From positions 88,020-152,019 of the forward strand of contig CANQJL010000002.1 of assembly GCA_947624245.1 (NCBI GenBank): DNA of 64,000 nucleotides, given 5' to 3'. Below the pieces are notes generated by a model, which saw nothing but the letters and a program-made list of their open reading frames with translations, was not told the DNA's origin and did not search any database. The DNA is from an uncultured Acetatifactor sp. (GTDB taxonomy: Bacteria > Bacillota > Clostridia > Lachnospirales > Lachnospiraceae). Of this stretch, positions 25,489-33,673 are shown one piece after another. Positions within the stretch are counted from its first letter, which is position 1; every line of letters begins with the position of its first letter. Both the position numbers and the translations under genes were made by a program.

Positions 25489-27492
25489 TTAATTGACCAC
25501 GCGCTTGAATTTCCGCTCCATCTCATACTTTGTCATGGACACAATGGTGGGCCTTCCGTGGGGACAGTTGTAGGGGTTGTCCAGCGTAAGCAGCTCGTCT
25601 ATCAGCGCCTCGGCCTCCGGAACGCTTAAGAGATGGTTGCCCTTCACGGCCGCCTTACAGGACATGGACGCTATCTTCTCCTCGACGACGCGCAGGTTCC
25701 CGAAGCTTCCGCCCTCCGCCAGCCCGTCCAGCACCTCCAGGAACATTTCCCGTTCGTTGCAGCCGTACAGGTCCGCAGGCACGCTCCGCAGCGCGTATTC
25801 GTTTCCGCCGAAGGCCTCCACCTCAAATCCGAGCCCGAAAAAGGTGTCCAGATGCTCCTTCAGAACGGTCTCCTCCTGTCCGGAGAGACTGACGATCACG
25901 GGGGGCATCAGCGTCTGTGAGACTACGGCCTTCTCGCGGTACTGCTTCATCAGCCGTTCAAAATTCACCTTCTCGTGCGCGGCGTGCTGGTCGATCATCA
26001 GCAGCTTGTCCTCGTACTGAACCAGCCAGTAGGTCTCAAAGACCTGCCCGATGATCCGAAAGCGGGCGCGGTTATCCTGGGTGAGAATCTTTTCCTCGAA
26101 CAAATTCAACTGTTCTGCAGAGGAGTTTTCTGCGGCGGCTTTTTCTTCTTGGCGCTTCAGTGCTTCGGAAGCATCTTTTTTCCCTTCGCGCTCCGGCACT
26201 TCGGAAATCTCCGAGGTCTCGGAAAAGAACGGATTTTCCCCAGAATCCGGGGATTCTGCAGGATTTTTTACCATTTTTTCCGAATTTTCCTGTGTTTTCT
26301 CCCTCTGCCAGGCGGGATTTTGAATAAAATCCTGCATATTTCGGCGTTCTGCGGCATATTTCGCATCTTCCGCAAGACGAAATTCTTCCGTGCGATGTCG
26401 CTCGAACGGCTCCGGCGTATGGACGCGTTCCTGCTTTTCCGCTTCCTGCCGCAGGGCTGCCTTCCGCTCGCGGTCGGTGTCCAGAGACGCCTCCGGAATC
26501 ATCTCCTCCCCGTGGAGAGTTTCCTGCACCGCCTTCGTCAGAAAGCGGGCGAAATCCATTCCGTCGCTGAAGCGGACGTCCATTTTCGTAGGGTGGACAT
26601 TGACGTCTACCTGTCTGGGATCCATTGTGATGTGCAGCACGCAGAGAGGAAATTTATGCTGCATCAGATATCCCTTATAGCCCTCCTCCACCGCCTTTGC
26701 AATGATGCCGCTTCGGATAAAACGGCCGTTGAGAAAATAGATCTCAAAATTGCGGTTCGACCGGACGGCCTCCGATTTTCCCAGATACCCCTCCGCCTTT
26801 ATCCCGCCTTGCTGCACCTGCATGGGAATCAGCGCATTGGCCGTCTCTCTCCCGTAGATTCGGTAGATCACTTCCTTTAGGTCGCCGCTGCCGGAGGTGT
26901 GGAATTTAAGCTGTCCGCCGAGGGTCAGCTTAAAGGAGATATCGGGGCGCGACAGCGCCAGATGCTCCATGAGATCGACAATATAACCGCCCTCGGTAGC
27001 CGCCTGCTTTAAGAATTTACGGCGCACGGGCGTGTTGTAAAAGAGATTGCGCATGATAAAGGTGGTGCCGTCCGGAGCGCCCACCTCCTCAAAGCCCGTC
27101 TCCCTTCCGCCCTCCAAAAGGATCCGGCTGCCCGTAATGCAGTCCTGCGGCTTGGTGATCACCTCCGTCCTCGACACGGCGGCAATGCTGGAAAGCGCCT
27201 CACCGCGAAAGCCCAGGCTTGCGATCTGCTGCAGGTCCTTCGCGTCCGCTATCTTGCTCGTGGCGTGCCGCAAAAACGCCGTGCGCAGCTGATCCCGTTC
27301 CATGCCGCAGCCGTTGTCTGTGACGCGGATATACTCAATGCCGCCCTCCTTCACCTCCACCGTGACGGCGTCCGCGCCGGAATCGATGGCGTTCTCCACC
27401 AGCTCCTTCACCACGCTGGCGGGGCGCTCCACCACCTCTCCGGCGGCGATCTTATCTATGGTGTCCGGATCCAAAACATGTATCTGTGCCAT
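25489..27492 (-). CDS. mutL: DNA mismatch repair protein MutL
   Basis: A 667-residue GHKL ATPase. ELVENAIDSGADAV (motif I), DNGCGM (II) and GFRGEALSSIAAV (III) form the ATP site. The C-terminal domain carries DQHAAHEKVNFERL, the metal-binding endonuclease motif, and CPHGRPT, so this is a nicking MutL as expected in bacteria lacking MutH. A low-complexity Glu/Lys/Ser linker (about 350-480) joins the halves. The ATG at 27492 (MAQIHVLD) has GAGG upstream and is preferred over the longer ORF. Confidence 0.96.
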   Translation of the reverse strand: MAQIHVLDPDTIDKIAAGEVVERPASVVKELVENAIDSGADAVTVEVKEGGIEYIRVTDNGCGMERDQLRTAFLRHATSKIADAKDLQQIASLGFRGEALSSIAAVSRTEVITKPQDCITGSRILLEGGRETGFEEVGAPDGTTFIMRNLFYNTPVRRKFLKQAATEGGYIVDLMEHLALSRPDISFKLTLGGQLKFHTSGSGDLKEVIYRIYGRETANALIPMQVQQGGIKAEGYLGKSEAVRSNRNFEIYFLNGRFIRSGIIAKAVEEGYKGYLMQHKFPLCVLHITMDPRQVDVNVHPTKMDVRFSDGMDFARFLTKAVQETLHGEEMIPEASLDTDRERKAALRQEAEKQERVHTPEPFERHRTEEFRLAEDAKYAAERRNMQDFIQNPAWQREKTQENSEKMVKNPAESPDSGENPFFSETSEISEVPEREGKKDASEALKRQEEKAAAENSSAEQLNLFEEKILTQDNRARFRIIGQVFETYWLVQYEDKLLMIDQHAAHEKVNFERLMKQYREKAVVSQTLMPPVIVSLSGQEETVLKEHLDTFFGLGFEVEAFGGNEYALRSVPADLYGCNEREMFLEVLDGLAEGGSFGNLRVVEEKIASMSCKAAVKGNHLLSVPEAEALIDELLTLDNPYNCPHGRPTIVSMTKYEMERKFKRVVN

Positions 27493-27576
27493 CTCGTGCC
27501 TCGCATTTCTCTTTTCAGTCTGTCCGGTCCTATTCCGCCGCACAGCCCCAGCCTGTCCTGTCTTAGCCTGCCCTAT

Positions 27577-30252
27577 TTATCCCTGCCATCTGTTCTTCAG
27601 CTTATTCTGCAGGCGGTACAGGGTGTTCAGCGCATCAATGGGCGACATGGTGCTGATTTCCAGCTCCGTCAGCTCTTTGATCACATCTTCGTCCTTCACC
27701 GTGTCAAAAAGTGACATCTGTGCCAGGTCGACTTCGTCCAGCTTCTGATGCTTCGCCGGCTTCCCGTCGTCCCTGGTATCTACCGTGATGCTCTGAATCT
27801 TTTCGATGATATCGTTGTCCGTGAGCTGTTCGACGATCTCCTTGGCGCGGTCGATGACGATATCGGGCACGCCTGCAAGCTTTGCCACCTGAATGCCGTA
27901 GCTTCTGTCCGCGCCGCCCCTTATGATCTTTCTCAGGAAGACGATGTCGTCTCCCACCTCCTTCACGGCGATACAGTAGTTGTTCACATTGCTCATCTTG
28001 CCCTCCAGCTCCGTCAGCTCGTGATAATGAGTGGCGAACAAGGTCTTGGCGCCCAGCAGTCTTCTGTTGCTGATGTGCTCGATCACCGCCCAGGCAATGC
28101 TCAGGCCGTCGAAGGTGGAAGTGCCCCTTCCGATCTCGTCTAAGATCAACAGGCTGTTCGAGGTGGCGTTCCTCAAGATATTTGCCACCTCGTTCATCTC
28201 CACCATGAAGGTGGACTGCCCGCTGGCCAGATCGTCGGAGGCGCCCACGCGGGTAAATATCCTGTCCACAATTCCGATGTCGGCGCTCTTTGCCGGCACG
28301 AAACAGCCGATCTGCGCAAGCAGTACGATCAGCGCCGTCTGCCGCATATAGGTGGATTTGCCGGCCATATTGGGGCCTGTGATGACGCTGATGCAGTGAC
28401 TGTTATTGTCCAGATAAGTGTCGTTTGCAATGAACATGTCGCCCTGCAGCGTCTGCTCCACAACGGGGTGCCGTCCGTCCTTAATGTTGATGACGCCCTT
28501 CTCGTTCAGTTTGGGGCGCACGTAGCGGTTGCGCTCGGACACCAGCGCTAGGGAGGCATACACGTCCAGCCGCGCCACGGCCTTTGCCGTCCTCTGAATG
28601 CGCATAAGCTCCTGCGCGACGCTGTCCCGTATCCTGCAGAAGATGTCGTATTCCAGCGCGGTCAGCTTGTCCTCCGCATTCAGGATCGTATCCTCCAGCT
28701 CCTTTAACCGGTCCGTGGTATAGCGCTCGGCGCCTGCCAGCGTCTGTTTTCGGATATAGTCGGCGGGCACCATGTCCTTGTAGGAATTGGTCACCTCAAA
28801 ATAATAGCCAAAGACCTTATTGTATTTGATCCGCAGATTCTTGATGCCGGTGCGCTCCCTGTCCTGTTCCTCCAGCTCCGCCAGCCATTGCTTTCCGTCT
28901 CTTTTGGCGCTGCGCAGCCTGTCCACGTTCTCGTCGAAGCCGTCCTTTATCATGCCGCCCTCGCGGATCGTCACGGGAGGCTCCTCCTCCACGGAAGCGC
29001 GGATCAGTTCATATACGTCCTCAAGACCGTCCATCTCATTTTCAATATTGCAAAGCTCTCCGGCGGAAAAGCTCTGCAACACCTTCTTGATGGCGGGAAG
29101 CATTTCCAGAGAATTGCGAAACGCAATGAGATCTCTGGGATTCGCCGTCTTGTAGGTCACCTTGCTGAGCAGTCTCTCAAGGTCGTAGATGGGGTTCAGA
29201 TACTCTCTCAGCTCGTCCCTTGAGACGCTGTCCTTGTTCAGATCCTCGATGGCGTCCAGCCGAAGCTCCATGTCGCTCTTGTCGATCAGCGGCTGTTCCA
29301 GCATACTCCGAAGCAGCCTTCCGCCCATGGCGGTCCTGGTCTTATCCAGAACGCCCAGAAGGGAGCCGCTCTTTCGCTTCTCCCGCAGGGTCTCCGTCAG
29401 CTCCAGATTGCGCCTTGTGGCGCTGTCGAGAAGCATATATTTGCTGGTCAGATAAGGGTGGATCTGGGTAAAATGCGCAAGATCCGTCTTCTGGGTATCA
29501 TAGAGATACTGAAGCAGCGCCCCCGCCGCCAGCATACCCACGGGAAATTCCTCGATGCCAAGACTGCTCAGGGTGTTCACCTTAAAATGCTCCAGCAGGA
29601 TACGTCTGCAGCCGTCGTCATCGAACATATGAGGCTCCAGAGCGTTTACGGAAATGCGGTACTTGTCCCGCAGACTCTCCAGATCGAAGCCGCTGACCAG
29701 AAACGCCTCGTTGTGAATGATCTCCGACGGCTCGTATTTCATCAGCTCGTCATTTAATTTCTTAAGGTCCTCCACCTCCGTCAGATAATAGTCGCCGGTG
29801 GTGACGTCCGCCACGGAGAGGCCGATCCTCGTAGGGGTATAGACAATGCACATGAGGAAATTATTTCTGGATTCCTCCAGCGACTGTACGTTCAGGTTGG
29901 TGCCGGGCGTCACCACGCGAATGACTTCGCGCTTCACCAGGCCCTTTGCCAGTCTGGGATCCTCCATCTGCTCGCCGATGGCGACCTTATATCCTTTGTT
30001 GACCAGCTTGGTCAGATATGTGTCCACCGCATGATACGGCACGCCGCACATGGGCGCCCGCTCCTTGAGGCCGCACGCCTTTCCGGTAAGGGTCAGCTCC
30101 AGCTCTCTGGAGGCTGTGACGGCGTCCTCAAAAAACATCTCATAGAAATCCCCCAGACGGTAAAAGAGAATGCAGTCCGGATACTGCTTCTTCGTCTCCA
30201 TGTATTGCTGCATCATGGGGGTCAGATCCTCCATGGGAATCTTGTCCGACAT
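27577..30252 (-). CDS. mutS: DNA mismatch recognition protein MutS
   Basis: An 891-residue MutS. The mismatch-binding domain has the Phe-x-Glu motif in ILFYRLGDFYEMFFEDA, and the ATPase domain has VITGPNMAGKSTYMRQTALI, LLILDEIGRGTSTFDGLSIA and LFATHYHELTELE. It precedes mutL by 84 nt. A terminator-like hairpin upstream suggests that it does not depend on miaB transcription. Confidence 0.97.
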   Translation of the reverse strand: MSDKIPMEDLTPMMQQYMETKKQYPDCILFYRLGDFYEMFFEDAVTASRELELTLTGKACGLKERAPMCGVPYHAVDTYLTKLVNKGYKVAIGEQMEDPRLAKGLVKREVIRVVTPGTNLNVQSLEESRNNFLMCIVYTPTRIGLSVADVTTGDYYLTEVEDLKKLNDELMKYEPSEIIHNEAFLVSGFDLESLRDKYRISVNALEPHMFDDDGCRRILLEHFKVNTLSSLGIEEFPVGMLAAGALLQYLYDTQKTDLAHFTQIHPYLTSKYMLLDSATRRNLELTETLREKRKSGSLLGVLDKTRTAMGGRLLRSMLEQPLIDKSDMELRLDAIEDLNKDSVSRDELREYLNPIYDLERLLSKVTYKTANPRDLIAFRNSLEMLPAIKKVLQSFSAGELCNIENEMDGLEDVYELIRASVEEEPPVTIREGGMIKDGFDENVDRLRSAKRDGKQWLAELEEQDRERTGIKNLRIKYNKVFGYYFEVTNSYKDMVPADYIRKQTLAGAERYTTDRLKELEDTILNAEDKLTALEYDIFCRIRDSVAQELMRIQRTAKAVARLDVYASLALVSERNRYVRPKLNEKGVINIKDGRHPVVEQTLQGDMFIANDTYLDNNSHCISVITGPNMAGKSTYMRQTALIVLLAQIGCFVPAKSADIGIVDRIFTRVGASDDLASGQSTFMVEMNEVANILRNATSNSLLILDEIGRGTSTFDGLSIAWAVIEHISNRRLLGAKTLFATHYHELTELEGKMSNVNNYCIAVKEVGDDIVFLRKIIRGGADRSYGIQVAKLAGVPDIVIDRAKEIVEQLTDNDIIEKIQSITVDTRDDGKPAKHQKLDEVDLAQMSLFDTVKDEDVIKELTELEISTMSPIDALNTLYRLQNKLKNRWQG

Positions 30253-30375
30253 TATGTGTACTCCTGTTCTGTCACGGAAGCGGTTCGCAAAATCTTAAAA
30301 CCGCAGTCCGAAGGGTAAATATGTGCCAAACTTGATCTGCAGCCGAAAGCCGCAGTCAAAAGCTTAAGATACCAT

Positions 30376-30412
30376 AAAAGGCAAATGCACAAGCAGTTGC
30401 GCATTTGCCTTT
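30376..30412 (-). terminator. Terminator between the glycosyltransferase-like gene and mutS
   Basis: AAAGGCAAATGC-12 nt-GCATTTGCCTTTT on the minus strand gives a 12-bp stem ending in a short T-run, about 80 nt beyond the 30494 stop. The rest of the 240-nt gap to mutS shows no gene. Confidence 0.75.
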
Positions 30413-30493
30413 ATCTTACCACAAAATATTGATATTGTAAAGTTTGACAGCTCGTCTTAAGGTTTGCCATTTGGGTTCCGTGCATTCAGAATT

Positions 30494-31537
30494 TCATTCT
30501 TTTCTATAGAACCTCCAGAATTCTCCGTCTTCATGCACTGTATAAGTGTCCTCGACCCATCTCATGATCCATGTATTCTTATCAACGGATATCTCTCCAT
30601 TCCAGCCCTCGACGGCTATGATCGTAGGTATTTTTTCAGGGTACATGTCCCAATAATACAGCAGACTTTCATTATATGTAGGTGTATTTATTGTAGAGAA
30701 GGTGCTCACTTTGGTATTCTGATCCACGTATACTATTGGATCTGACATCCACGGGACTACAACGAGAATCGAATCCTCATTTACAAACCTCTGCCAATCG
30801 GACAGCGTCCCTTTTACTTCGTTGCATTTCTGCAAAGACGTGACAATACCCTTTGCGGGGCCTGCACGTATAACATTTTCCAGATCAATTGTCAATTTAA
30901 TCCCTGCCTCGTTTGCGTATCCGCACACAATCATTGCCCTGTGAAATATAAACAAGGCAAGAATGGCAACAATAAAACCAACGCCTTCATTGGAGCGGCG
31001 GTTACATACAGCCATCTGGCCTAATGACACAAACGAGACCAACGCCCCCAAAATCAAATATCCCATAATCGACAAGAATTCAAGGTTTGTCAAAAATGCT
31101 ACGGAAACGGTGGACAACAGCGAAATGACCATTCCTGTATAATATAACATTCGCGTTTCCGGATTTAAATATTTGCATCCCCTGCCACCCAAGCAGATCA
31201 ACAGCAACAAAATAATGAAATATTGGCAATTCCAATCCAGCGGCTGCTTTCTCGAAATAAATATAAGTACTATTTCCGTTAATAGCAGCCCATACCCAAA
31301 ACAGGAGAAAAAAGTAACTTTGTTTCTGATGAAAAGATAAATCAAAAACGATACGGCGGCCACTACGGCAATCCAAATCGCTCCATTCATAAATCCTCGG
31401 AAATAATACGCTATATCCGTAATCTTTTCACCGTGAGATGCATCAGCCTGCATTATAAATTGAATATTCTTTATTACCCCCCCGAACCAACTTCGGAAAC
31501 GATTGCTGCCATATATCCCCCGCCGCATATTGCACAC
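30494..31537 (-). CDS. C-terminal part of a frameshifted GT-C-like membrane protein
   Basis: This frame encodes about six to seven membrane helices (for example GAIWIAVVAAVSFLIYLFI, YFIILLLLICLGG, MGYLILGALVSFVSLGQMAV) and an extracytoplasmic tail of about 130 residues ending in TYTVHEDGEFWRFYRKE. The nominal ATG at 31537 has no Shine-Dalgarno sequence and the first 20 codons are antisense-like sequence overlapping the upstream frame. Reading joins the upstream ORF if the run of seven G at 31477-31483 is counted as eight. The combined protein (about 560 residues) would be a typical GT-C-fold glycosyltransferase-like membrane enzyme. AT-rich compared with neighbours. Confidence 0.7.
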   Translation of the reverse strand: MCNMRRGIYGSNRFRSWFGGVIKNIQFIMQADASHGEKITDIAYYFRGFMNGAIWIAVVAAVSFLIYLFIRNKVTFFSCFGYGLLLTEIVLIFISRKQPLDWNCQYFIILLLLICLGGRGCKYLNPETRMLYYTGMVISLLSTVSVAFLTNLEFLSIMGYLILGALVSFVSLGQMAVCNRRSNEGVGFIVAILALFIFHRAMIVCGYANEAGIKLTIDLENVIRAGPAKGIVTSLQKCNEVKGTLSDWQRFVNEDSILVVVPWMSDPIVYVDQNTKVSTFSTINTPTYNESLLYYWDMYPEKIPTIIAVEGWNGEISVDKNTWIMRWVEDTYTVHEDGEFWRFYRKE

Positions 31538-32187
31538 GTGCTTGTAAAAAATGCGATATTTGTCAATCTTCTTTTACCGAACACATACAATAGACTCAAT
31601 ACACCAAAGAATACGACTATGCATGTGGGATAGGATATGATTTCCAGACAAAGAAATAATGCTGCAAATATAAGATAATATTTCTTCTCCTGATTTCTGT
31701 AAAATTTCAGCAAAAATACGAAAAGCAGAACCGAAAAGCATATCTGCATGTTTGAAAACTCAGGAAAAACACTTTGCTTTGCACGAAAAACAAAGAAAAG
31801 CATACACATGTAATGTGCCGTTCTATAGTCTATAAAACGGACAAGTTCTTTATATAAAACCAATGTCACTATCGCGTATAAAAAGACACCGCATATTTGC
31901 AGGTACAATGCCACTCCGGTCAGGTCCGGAACAAACTTTTTATATAACGCCATTAAAAAATCAGTCAAAAAAATAGATGTCTGATGAGGTTCACACATTT
32001 CCTGGAATAATCTGTCTCCCATTATGTGACGAAATGACATGGCTACGGCATATGCCTGATCCGTTCCGAAATCAGAAAATATACTTTTTATATTTGCAAT
32101 TACGACTGCTATCCATAAAACACAAATTTTTTTTTCACATTTTGCAATGAACTTTGATTGTTTTTTGGTCTTTTCACTTGTCCCCAT
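31474..32187 (-). CDS. N-terminal part of a frameshifted GT-C-like membrane protein
   Basis: A 237-residue frame with helices near residues 27-45, 95-115 and 155-225. The first external loop FGTDQAYAVAMSFRHIMGDRLFQEMCEPHQTS, with an acidic residue followed by an alpha-helical R-x-x-x-G-D segment, resembles the catalytic loop of GT-C glycosyltransferases. Its ATG has GGGAG five bases upstream, embedded in the miaB stop region one base away, so it is translated with miaB. It ends at TCG GGG GGG TAA, directly after a G7 tract; one extra G would continue into the next ORF. Sugar donor and acceptor are unknown. Confidence 0.7.
   Translation of the reverse strand: MGTSEKTKKQSKFIAKCEKKICVLWIAVVIANIKSIFSDFGTDQAYAVAMSFRHIMGDRLFQEMCEPHQTSIFLTDFLMALYKKFVPDLTGVALYLQICGVFLYAIVTLVLYKELVRFIDYRTAHYMCMLFFVFRAKQSVFPEFSNMQICFSVLLFVFLLKFYRNQEKKYYLIFAALFLCLEIISYPTCIVVFFGVLSLLYVFGKRRLTNIAFFTSTCAICGGGYMAAIVSEVGSGG
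31477..31483. repeat. Run of seven C (G7 on the coding strand) at the frame break
   Basis: TTACCCCCCCGAAC on the plus strand. It is the only place in the 64-nt overlap where a one-base length change fuses the two frames (VGS-GG-VIKNIQFI). Candidate slippage site. Confidence 0.85.
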
Positions 32188-32188
32188 A

Positions 32189-33673
32189 TCATCTCCCGTT
32201 TACGCCTCCCCTTTCGCAGCCATCGGCCGGCACTGCTTTTCCCAGATAATAGAAGCCGCGGCACTCCTCCAAAAGGACCGGAAACAGTTTCCCCACCATG
32301 GTCTCATCTCCGGGAATATGTACGATCGTATTGTTGGAAAGCCTTCCCGTCACATAGCCGGGCGTGCTCTCGTTCACCTCCTCGATCAGGGCCTCCAGGA
32401 CCTTGCCCTGATGCGCGGCAGCCTGTTCCCTTGCCGTCTCCTGCACGACCTTCAGCAGCCGGTCGAAGCCTTCTTTCCTCTGCGCCTCGGGCACCTGATT
32501 TTCCATGGCCGCCGCAGGCGTTCCCGTGCGCTTGGAGTAGAGAAAGGTAAAGGCATTGTCATATTTCACCTGCCGCACCATGTCTATCGTCTGCTCCAGA
32601 TCCTCCGGCGTCTCGCCGGGAAAGCCCACGATGATATCCGTAGTGATGGCAATGTCGGGAATCTCCTGCCGGATACGCCGCACAAGCTCCAGATACTGCT
32701 CTCTTGTATAGCGGCGGTTCATCTGCTGCAGGATCCTCGTGGAGCCGGACTGCAGGGGCAGATGCAGGTGGCGGCATATCTTGTCCGACTCCTTCATGAC
32801 CTGTATCAGCTCGTCGGAGAGATCCTTGGGGTGAGAGGTCATAAAGCGGATCCGCTTCAGTCCCTCTATCCTTTCCACCCTGCGCAAAAGCTCCGCAAAG
32901 GTCACGGGAGTCTCCAGATTCCGGCCGTAGGAGTTCACGTTCTGGCCCAGCAGCATCACCTCCACCACACCGTCCGCCACAAGCCGCTCTATCTCCCGCA
33001 GGATATCCTCGGGCCGTCTGCTGCGCTCCCTGCCCCTCACGTAGGGCACGATACAGTAGCTGCAGAAATTGTCACAGCCGAACATGATGTTGACGCCGGA
33101 CTTAAAGGGATACTTGCGCTCCACGGGCAGCTCCTCCACGATCCTGTCCGTATCCTTCCATATGTCCACGACCATGCCGTCCGATTCCAGTGTCCTGCAC
33201 AAAAGCTCCGCAAATTGATAGAGATTGTGGGTGCCGAAGATCAGGTCCACGAACCCATAGCTTTTTTTCAGCTTTTCTATTACCTCCGGCTCCTGCATCA
33301 TGCAGCCGCAGAGCGCGATCTTCATTTCGGGGTTCCTGCGCTTATAGCCGTTCAGCTCCCCCAGCCTTCCGTAGACGCGCTGATTCGCGTTGTCCCTGAC
33401 GGTACAGGTATTGAAGATCACGAAATCGGAATTTTCGTCCTCCGTCAGCTCATAGCCGATCTGCCGCAGGATTCCCGAAAGCTTCTCGGAGTCCCGGGCG
33501 TTCATCTGACAGCCGAAGGTAGTCACGCAGGCCCTCGGAAAACGGTTGTGCTTCTCGTAAAAGCAATCCACGTACCGGCGGCATTTTTCGATAAAGTAAT
33601 ATTGCCGGGCGGGCTCGTCGGACGGCGGAGCCTCTTCAAGGTTTATCTGTTCATAATCTGTTTCACCGTACAT
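32189..33673 (-). CDS. miaB: tRNA-2-methylthio-N6-dimethylallyladenosine synthase MiaB
   Basis: A 494-residue radical SAM methylthiotransferase that thiomethylates i6A37. The UPF0004 domain has TTFGCQMNARDSEK and the second cluster Cys residues; the radical SAM CxxxCxxC is in NIMFGCDNFCSYCIVPYVRGRE; a TRAM domain (VTGRLSNNTIVHIPGDETMVGK) ends the protein. It supplies the step after MiaA. An N-terminal extension of about 50 residues is typical for Clostridia. Confidence 0.96.
   Translation of the reverse strand: MYGETDYEQINLEEAPPSDEPARQYYFIEKCRRYVDCFYEKHNRFPRACVTTFGCQMNARDSEKLSGILRQIGYELTEDENSDFVIFNTCTVRDNANQRVYGRLGELNGYKRRNPEMKIALCGCMMQEPEVIEKLKKSYGFVDLIFGTHNLYQFAELLCRTLESDGMVVDIWKDTDRIVEELPVERKYPFKSGVNIMFGCDNFCSYCIVPYVRGRERSRRPEDILREIERLVADGVVEVMLLGQNVNSYGRNLETPVTFAELLRRVERIEGLKRIRFMTSHPKDLSDELIQVMKESDKICRHLHLPLQSGSTRILQQMNRRYTREQYLELVRRIRQEIPDIAITTDIIVGFPGETPEDLEQTIDMVRQVKYDNAFTFLYSKRTGTPAAAMENQVPEAQRKEGFDRLLKVVQETAREQAAAHQGKVLEALIEEVNESTPGYVTGRLSNNTIVHIPGDETMVGKLFPVLLEECRGFYYLGKAVPADGCERGGVNGR

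Follow-up and report, generated by a model that had tools for sequence, protein, structure and literature searches.

A poly-G tract splits a GT-C-type membrane glycosyltransferase gene in an uncultured Acetatifactor and may act as a phase-variation switch

A gene for a membrane glycosyltransferase-like protein, split by a frameshift at a run of seven G (G7), was found in a stretch of 64,000 nucleotides (the window) on contig 2 of the 2.53 Mb, 53-contig draft assembly of an uncultured Acetatifactor sp., and is probably (at about 0.6) a poly-G slipped-strand contingency, or phase-variation, locus that is currently OFF. The evidence favours a switch over decay of the gene, an error of assembly and programmed frameshifting. 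Under the proposed mechanism, a low-GC, probably horizontally acquired gene for a membrane glycosyltransferase of GT-C fold, lying between miaB and mutS, would gain or lose a G in its coding poly-G tract through slipped-strand mispairing during replication. As assembled, with a TAA directly after the tract, the gene would yield only a 237-residue N-terminal piece, leaving the enzyme OFF, and a tract length that restores the register would give the full protein, the ON state and an altered surface glycan. The organism appears to apply poly-G likewise in several further genes of glycan or membrane-protein type. Such a switch would presumably be reversible, with a switching rate, a glycan substrate and a benefit of its own.

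A gene split into two frames at a G7 tract

Two minus-strand frames of 237 and 347 codons, overlapping by 64 nt and meeting at a G7 run, had been described in an earlier sequence-only reading, and all of these features were confirmed from the open reading frames and the sequence (Table 1). The same reading had held that one added G would join the halves into one protein, which agrees with the DNA-level alignment with relatives, in which the window is 1 nt short exactly at the tract, and with the contiguous coverage by the two halves of a 564-position family profile. In the first frame the tract reads tcG GGG GGG taa. The start ATG of this frame lies one base past the stop of the miaB-like gene, and the downstream ATGs, as had been noted before, show no obvious Shine-Dalgarno sequence when inspected by eye. 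No further lesion was seen in the split gene by comparison with the family profile, the remaining frame being open and matching the profile. A tract at the same place was absent from all six relatives that were aligned.

The GC content of the split gene is 36-44% as against ~53-59% on both sides, and this difference suggests that the gene was acquired horizontally. Among the fetched loci, no other family member was adjoined by mutS or miaB. A feedback on mutS and mutL through polarity of the OFF state was also considered and was weakened as a candidate by the strong hairpin and T run that precede mutS; the RNA fold of 30255-30493 gave z = -4.96 for the whole stretch.

Table 1. Positions of the split gene, its neighbours and further loci with poly-G tracts (plain numbers are positions in the window; a contig prefix marks loci elsewhere in the same genome)
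Feature	Position	Strand	Remarks
N-terminal half of split GT-C-type gene	31474-32187	-	237 codons; family profile 8-227
C-terminal half	30494-31537	-	347-codon frame, ~326 codons past the tract; family profile 223-562
G7 tract, junction of both frames	31477-31483	-	1-nt gap relative to relatives
TAA closing the first frame	31474-31476	-	immediately 3' of the tract; from the sequence
Probable terminator between gene and mutS	30376-30412	-	15-bp hairpin, then short T run
miaB-like neighbour, upstream	32189-33673	-	named by eye from translation
mutS-like neighbour, downstream	27577-30252	-	named by eye from translation
mutL-like gene, after mutS-like gene	25489-27543		named by eye from translation
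DUF6044 (PF19510) membrane protein	C1:71346 (gene C1:70503-72312; L194)		split at G8; profile 11-306 and 311-562
DUF6056 (PF19528)	C1:101103		broken at G8; inside low-GC glycan cluster
DUF6056	C15:59269		split at G8; profile 7-231 and 262-439
Unnamed membrane protein	C15:60465		split at G7; close to contig end
Promoter-like loci, same genome	C4:26301, C6:52219, C6:90725, C10:86953, C21:10551, C26:104, C32:7183, C36:641, C38:689
Promoter-like loci, genus	L386-L405

The protein family and its predicted fold

Of 138 genomes from the genus, 102 had a match to the family, that of the window included, as against none of 38 genomes searched from other genera. Most members are single open frames of ~555-650 residues, and nearly all of the ~120 same-genus relatives are uninterrupted. 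A query with the alignment returned 192 relatives, the 80 best of which come nearly all from Lachnospiraceae assemblies, and the C-terminal half used alone as a query against genome contigs gave no match. The relatives are labelled Acetatifactor sp. or Lachnospiraceae and derive mostly from metagenome assemblies, several of them apparently from rabbit or ruminant gut.

No Pfam family was assigned to the gene, apart from a weak PMT_2 match in one member; neither DUF6044 nor DUF6056 matched the window gene, and no solved structure related by sequence profile was found. The closest intact homologue (L081; identity of 52% and 49% to the two halves) was examined through its AlphaFold model (pLDDT 92.8). 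Foldseek gave 17 PDB matches with E below 0.001 for the model, every one of them a GT-C enzyme, comprising the oligosaccharyltransferases STT3/PglB/AglB together with ArnT and DPY19, and no match at E below 0.001 was found in a viral fold library. The earlier description of the protein as GT-C-like is thus upheld by the model. The likeness to these enzymes extends to the fold (Foldseek E 1e-6 to 7e-4), to a polytopic architecture with a soluble C-terminal part and to an acidic residue that follows closely on the first helix; however, identity is only 10-13%, TM-scores are ~0.4-0.5 and a sequence-profile match is lacking. In GT-C enzymes an acidic residue sits just after the first helix. The nearly invariant residues of the family cluster just past its first helix (2-28) and comprise D33, Y36, R43, G47, D48 and W55-E-P-H-Q59, and the acidic ones among them (D33, D48 and E56), all of which follow that helix, are candidates, judged from the predicted fold, for the GT-C acidic residues of the first outer loop. 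Given the model, membrane glycosyltransferase is the best assignment of the family.

Frequency of G7 tracts

The tract was rejected as evidence by itself, as dinucleotide shuffles of the window are richer in G7 (12.5 expected) than the window (2 found). Across the genome there are 62 raw G7 matches, none of them longer than G8, and the stretches that were fetched contain ~52 distinct tracts; the census was based on these stretches with each distinct tract counted once, and one locus flagged as a break (L208:12359) was left out of the count of breaks, lying at the end of a 1421-codon gene. Because G7 is not rare in the genome, the evidence lies in the coincidence of tract and frame break, for which the chance in the split gene is ~0.6% at the G7 density of intact relatives. 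Tract length is the weakest point of the switch reading: a G7 tract meets the repeat cut-off of 7 used for Campylobacter (PMC6321876) and does not reach the cut-off of 9 used for Neisseria (PMC5953494).

Recurrence of poly-G breaks in the family and in the genome

Five of the ~120 family members are internally broken, and four of these breaks (window, L082, L104 and L247) fall at G7/G8, for which the chance is ~1e-8 under a simple model that uses the G7 density of intact members and ignores relatedness. Since the fifth break (L248) lies away from any tract, as do the breaks of DUF6044 genes in three other genomes, some broken genes in these assemblies are not the result of slippage. Coding-strand runs of G8 or longer number 8 in ~208 kb of family genes as against 0 in 492 kb of flanking ORFs. 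For G7 and longer the family shows no excess over a synonymous-codon shuffle (12 vs 14.7) and the flanking genes are depleted (7 vs 24 expected), so that the excess exists only relative to flanking genes.

Two pairs of family members from different species carry a tract at a shared position with one member ON and the other OFF (L083 ON and L082 OFF; L098 ON and L104 OFF), at a DNA identity within pairs of 67-70%. The sharing of tracts between species could be convergent, as the nearest homologues of L082 lack the tract and L083 is more distant from it than they are. Upstream of family genes in three species (L088, L089 and L090), an opposite-strand G8 (C8) lies close by within similar flanks, possibly as a conserved upstream tract. 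In another species of the genus, an acyltransferase-type gene (L173; G021:C53:13090) is open on both sides of a G9 and out of register.

Beyond the window, the same genome has four more genes in which the frames flanking a G7/G8 are open and yet out of register (Table 1). A second DUF6044 copy (C1:54826-56589) is intact. The two affected genes on C15 adjoin each other near the contig end (C15:58432-61157; L206:13432-16157), and the break in the unnamed one, whose relatives are mostly single frames of 600-700 residues, is the least certain of the four. The DUF6044 and DUF6056 proteins resemble the window protein in being large membrane proteins of the same genome that are split, in their case at G8, but the window gene belongs to a separate family by sequence.

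The tracts are unevenly distributed between gene classes. On C1 and the window together, 8 distinct tracts of G7 or longer were counted in low-GC genes where 1.6 were expected (Poisson P 3e-4), as against 3 in high-GC genes where 9.4 were expected, and the tract-rich low-GC genes, at ~5x expectation, are mostly glycan genes. A low-GC glycan cluster at C1:95-111 kb (C1:95346-110737; L195, L196) has seven G7/G8 tracts in 15 kb; six are intragenic and on the coding strand, and the seventh lies shortly ahead of a methyltransferase gene. The cluster contains glycosyltransferases, methyltransferases, an acyltransferase, DUF6056 and genes of sugar-activation type.

The recurrence of G7/G8 breaks in the family and in other membrane-protein genes, together with tracts that share a position but differ in state (ON or OFF) between two species, supports the possible phase-variable switch proposed from the sequence. 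Decay and assembly error, which had been listed beside it as alternatives, were both kept as rivals and are both judged less likely. The main rival is an accidental, mutation-prone tract, in which a dispensable, recently acquired gene lost a base at an unselected homopolymer and is now decaying, so that slippage would be real but reversible switching would not have evolved. G7 is common in the genome, the relatives have no tract at the position of the window tract, and a 2025 review voices the same caution on C7/G7 tracts such as that of meningococcal siaD, which may be accidental (PMC11868660). However, simple decay is made less likely by a single lesion at a recurrent kind of site: a second lesion is lacking in the split gene, low-GC genes have more tracts than expected and the other genes fewer, like breaks occur in five genes of one genome and in four family members, and both ON and OFF states are found at shared positions. 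An accidental tract is thus an unlikely explanation that nevertheless retains an appreciable minor share of the probability, because the defining property of phase variation is reversibility, which one assembly cannot show.

An error of assembly or consensus at the homopolymer, in which case the cell would carry the in-frame length and an intact gene, is improbable. Homopolymers are the usual site of such errors, the source is a draft in many contigs and most relatives are metagenome assemblies; however, the same assembly keeps its high-GC genes in frame at ~14 coding G7 tracts, with 5 of 15 tracts off register as against 0 of those 14 (Fisher P 0.025), and the five breaks including that of the window differ in direction (three one way and two the other), whereas a systematic error would be expected mainly to shorten tracts. 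A programmed -1 ribosomal frameshift or transcriptional slippage, giving two products from one mRNA, would suit the correctly phased G_GGG_GGG heptamer with a stop directly after it, but was rejected as the main explanation and is very improbable, since no stimulatory RNA structure was detected downstream (z = -0.41), relatives are single uninterrupted frames without the heptamer, and three other broken genes of the genome would need the opposite direction.

Comparison with known phase-variable systems

Poly-G phase variation is best known in Campylobacter, Neisseria and Helicobacter, and surface switching in gut commensals has mostly been described as invertible DNA. The proposed locus shares with the capsule and LOS genes of Campylobacter jejuni and the lgt genes of Neisseria a coding poly-G tract in a gene of surface-glycan type, a frameshift that leads promptly to a stop, the presence of several loci per genome and, for two other tract positions of the family, the occurrence of ON and OFF alleles among relatives. 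It differs from them in its Lachnospiraceae host, in a GT-C type not named in Pfam, in its short tracts (G7-G8 here, at least G9 in some relatives) and in being known from sequence alone. In serogroup B of Neisseria meningitidis, the C7 of siaD is likewise a 7-base G/C tract in a glycan gene at which expression is lost; that tract is thought to be accidental (PMC11868660), whereas the tracts described here recur in relatives and are enriched in the relevant gene class of their own genome.

In the literature searched, no paper joins Acetatifactor and phase variation, and the papers that link Lachnospiraceae with homopolymers and phase variation are, to judge by titles and abstracts, not concerned with switching of this kind in the group. 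As a tentative extension that falls somewhat short of probable, Acetatifactor-type Lachnospiraceae may possess, throughout the genus, a two-armed system of poly-G contingency loci. Coding tracts would switch membrane glycosyltransferases and other glycan enzymes, and tracts between the -35 and -10 boxes would modulate the promoters of surface proteins, namely sortase, RHS-repeat and zinc-ribbon proteins. If true, this would give a gut lineage of Clostridia a phasome resembling that of Campylobacter. Should a set of glycan genes indeed be switched by poly-G in common Lachnospiraceae of the gut, these commensals, too, would use slippage to vary their surface, which could affect escape from phage and IgA, and frameshifted 'pseudogenes' in their assemblies would often be switched-off alleles.

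Promoter-like poly-G tracts

About ten intergenic G7/G8 tracts of the genome lie in promoter-like sequences of the form TTGACA-N9-G7-TAAAAT, in which the G run occupies the 3' part of the -35/-10 spacer and abuts the -10 box. Among the 138 genomes of the genus, 34 contain this pattern, with 93 matches in all as against 0 for the reversed pattern. A family-wide set of 299 genomes, nearly all of different genera, had 16 with a match, the own genome included. The spacer is mostly 16 with G7; within the limits set by the pattern it varies from 14 to 18, and the run from G6 to G9. Promoters of stable RNAs were considered, several of the loci being at contig ends, and were rejected, as no RNA gene was found in ten loci. 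The pattern could reflect phase variation of promoters or some other class of promoter. About half of the 20 downstream proteins tested had no Pfam match, and the remainder included a sortase, three RHS-repeat proteins, two zinc-ribbon proteins (similar copies in the own genome) and LprI. In the genome of the window, TA directly follows 12 of 18 tracts of G7 or longer in low-GC regions as against 6 of 18 in high-GC regions; this partly reflects the promoter class, yet coding tracts show the same.
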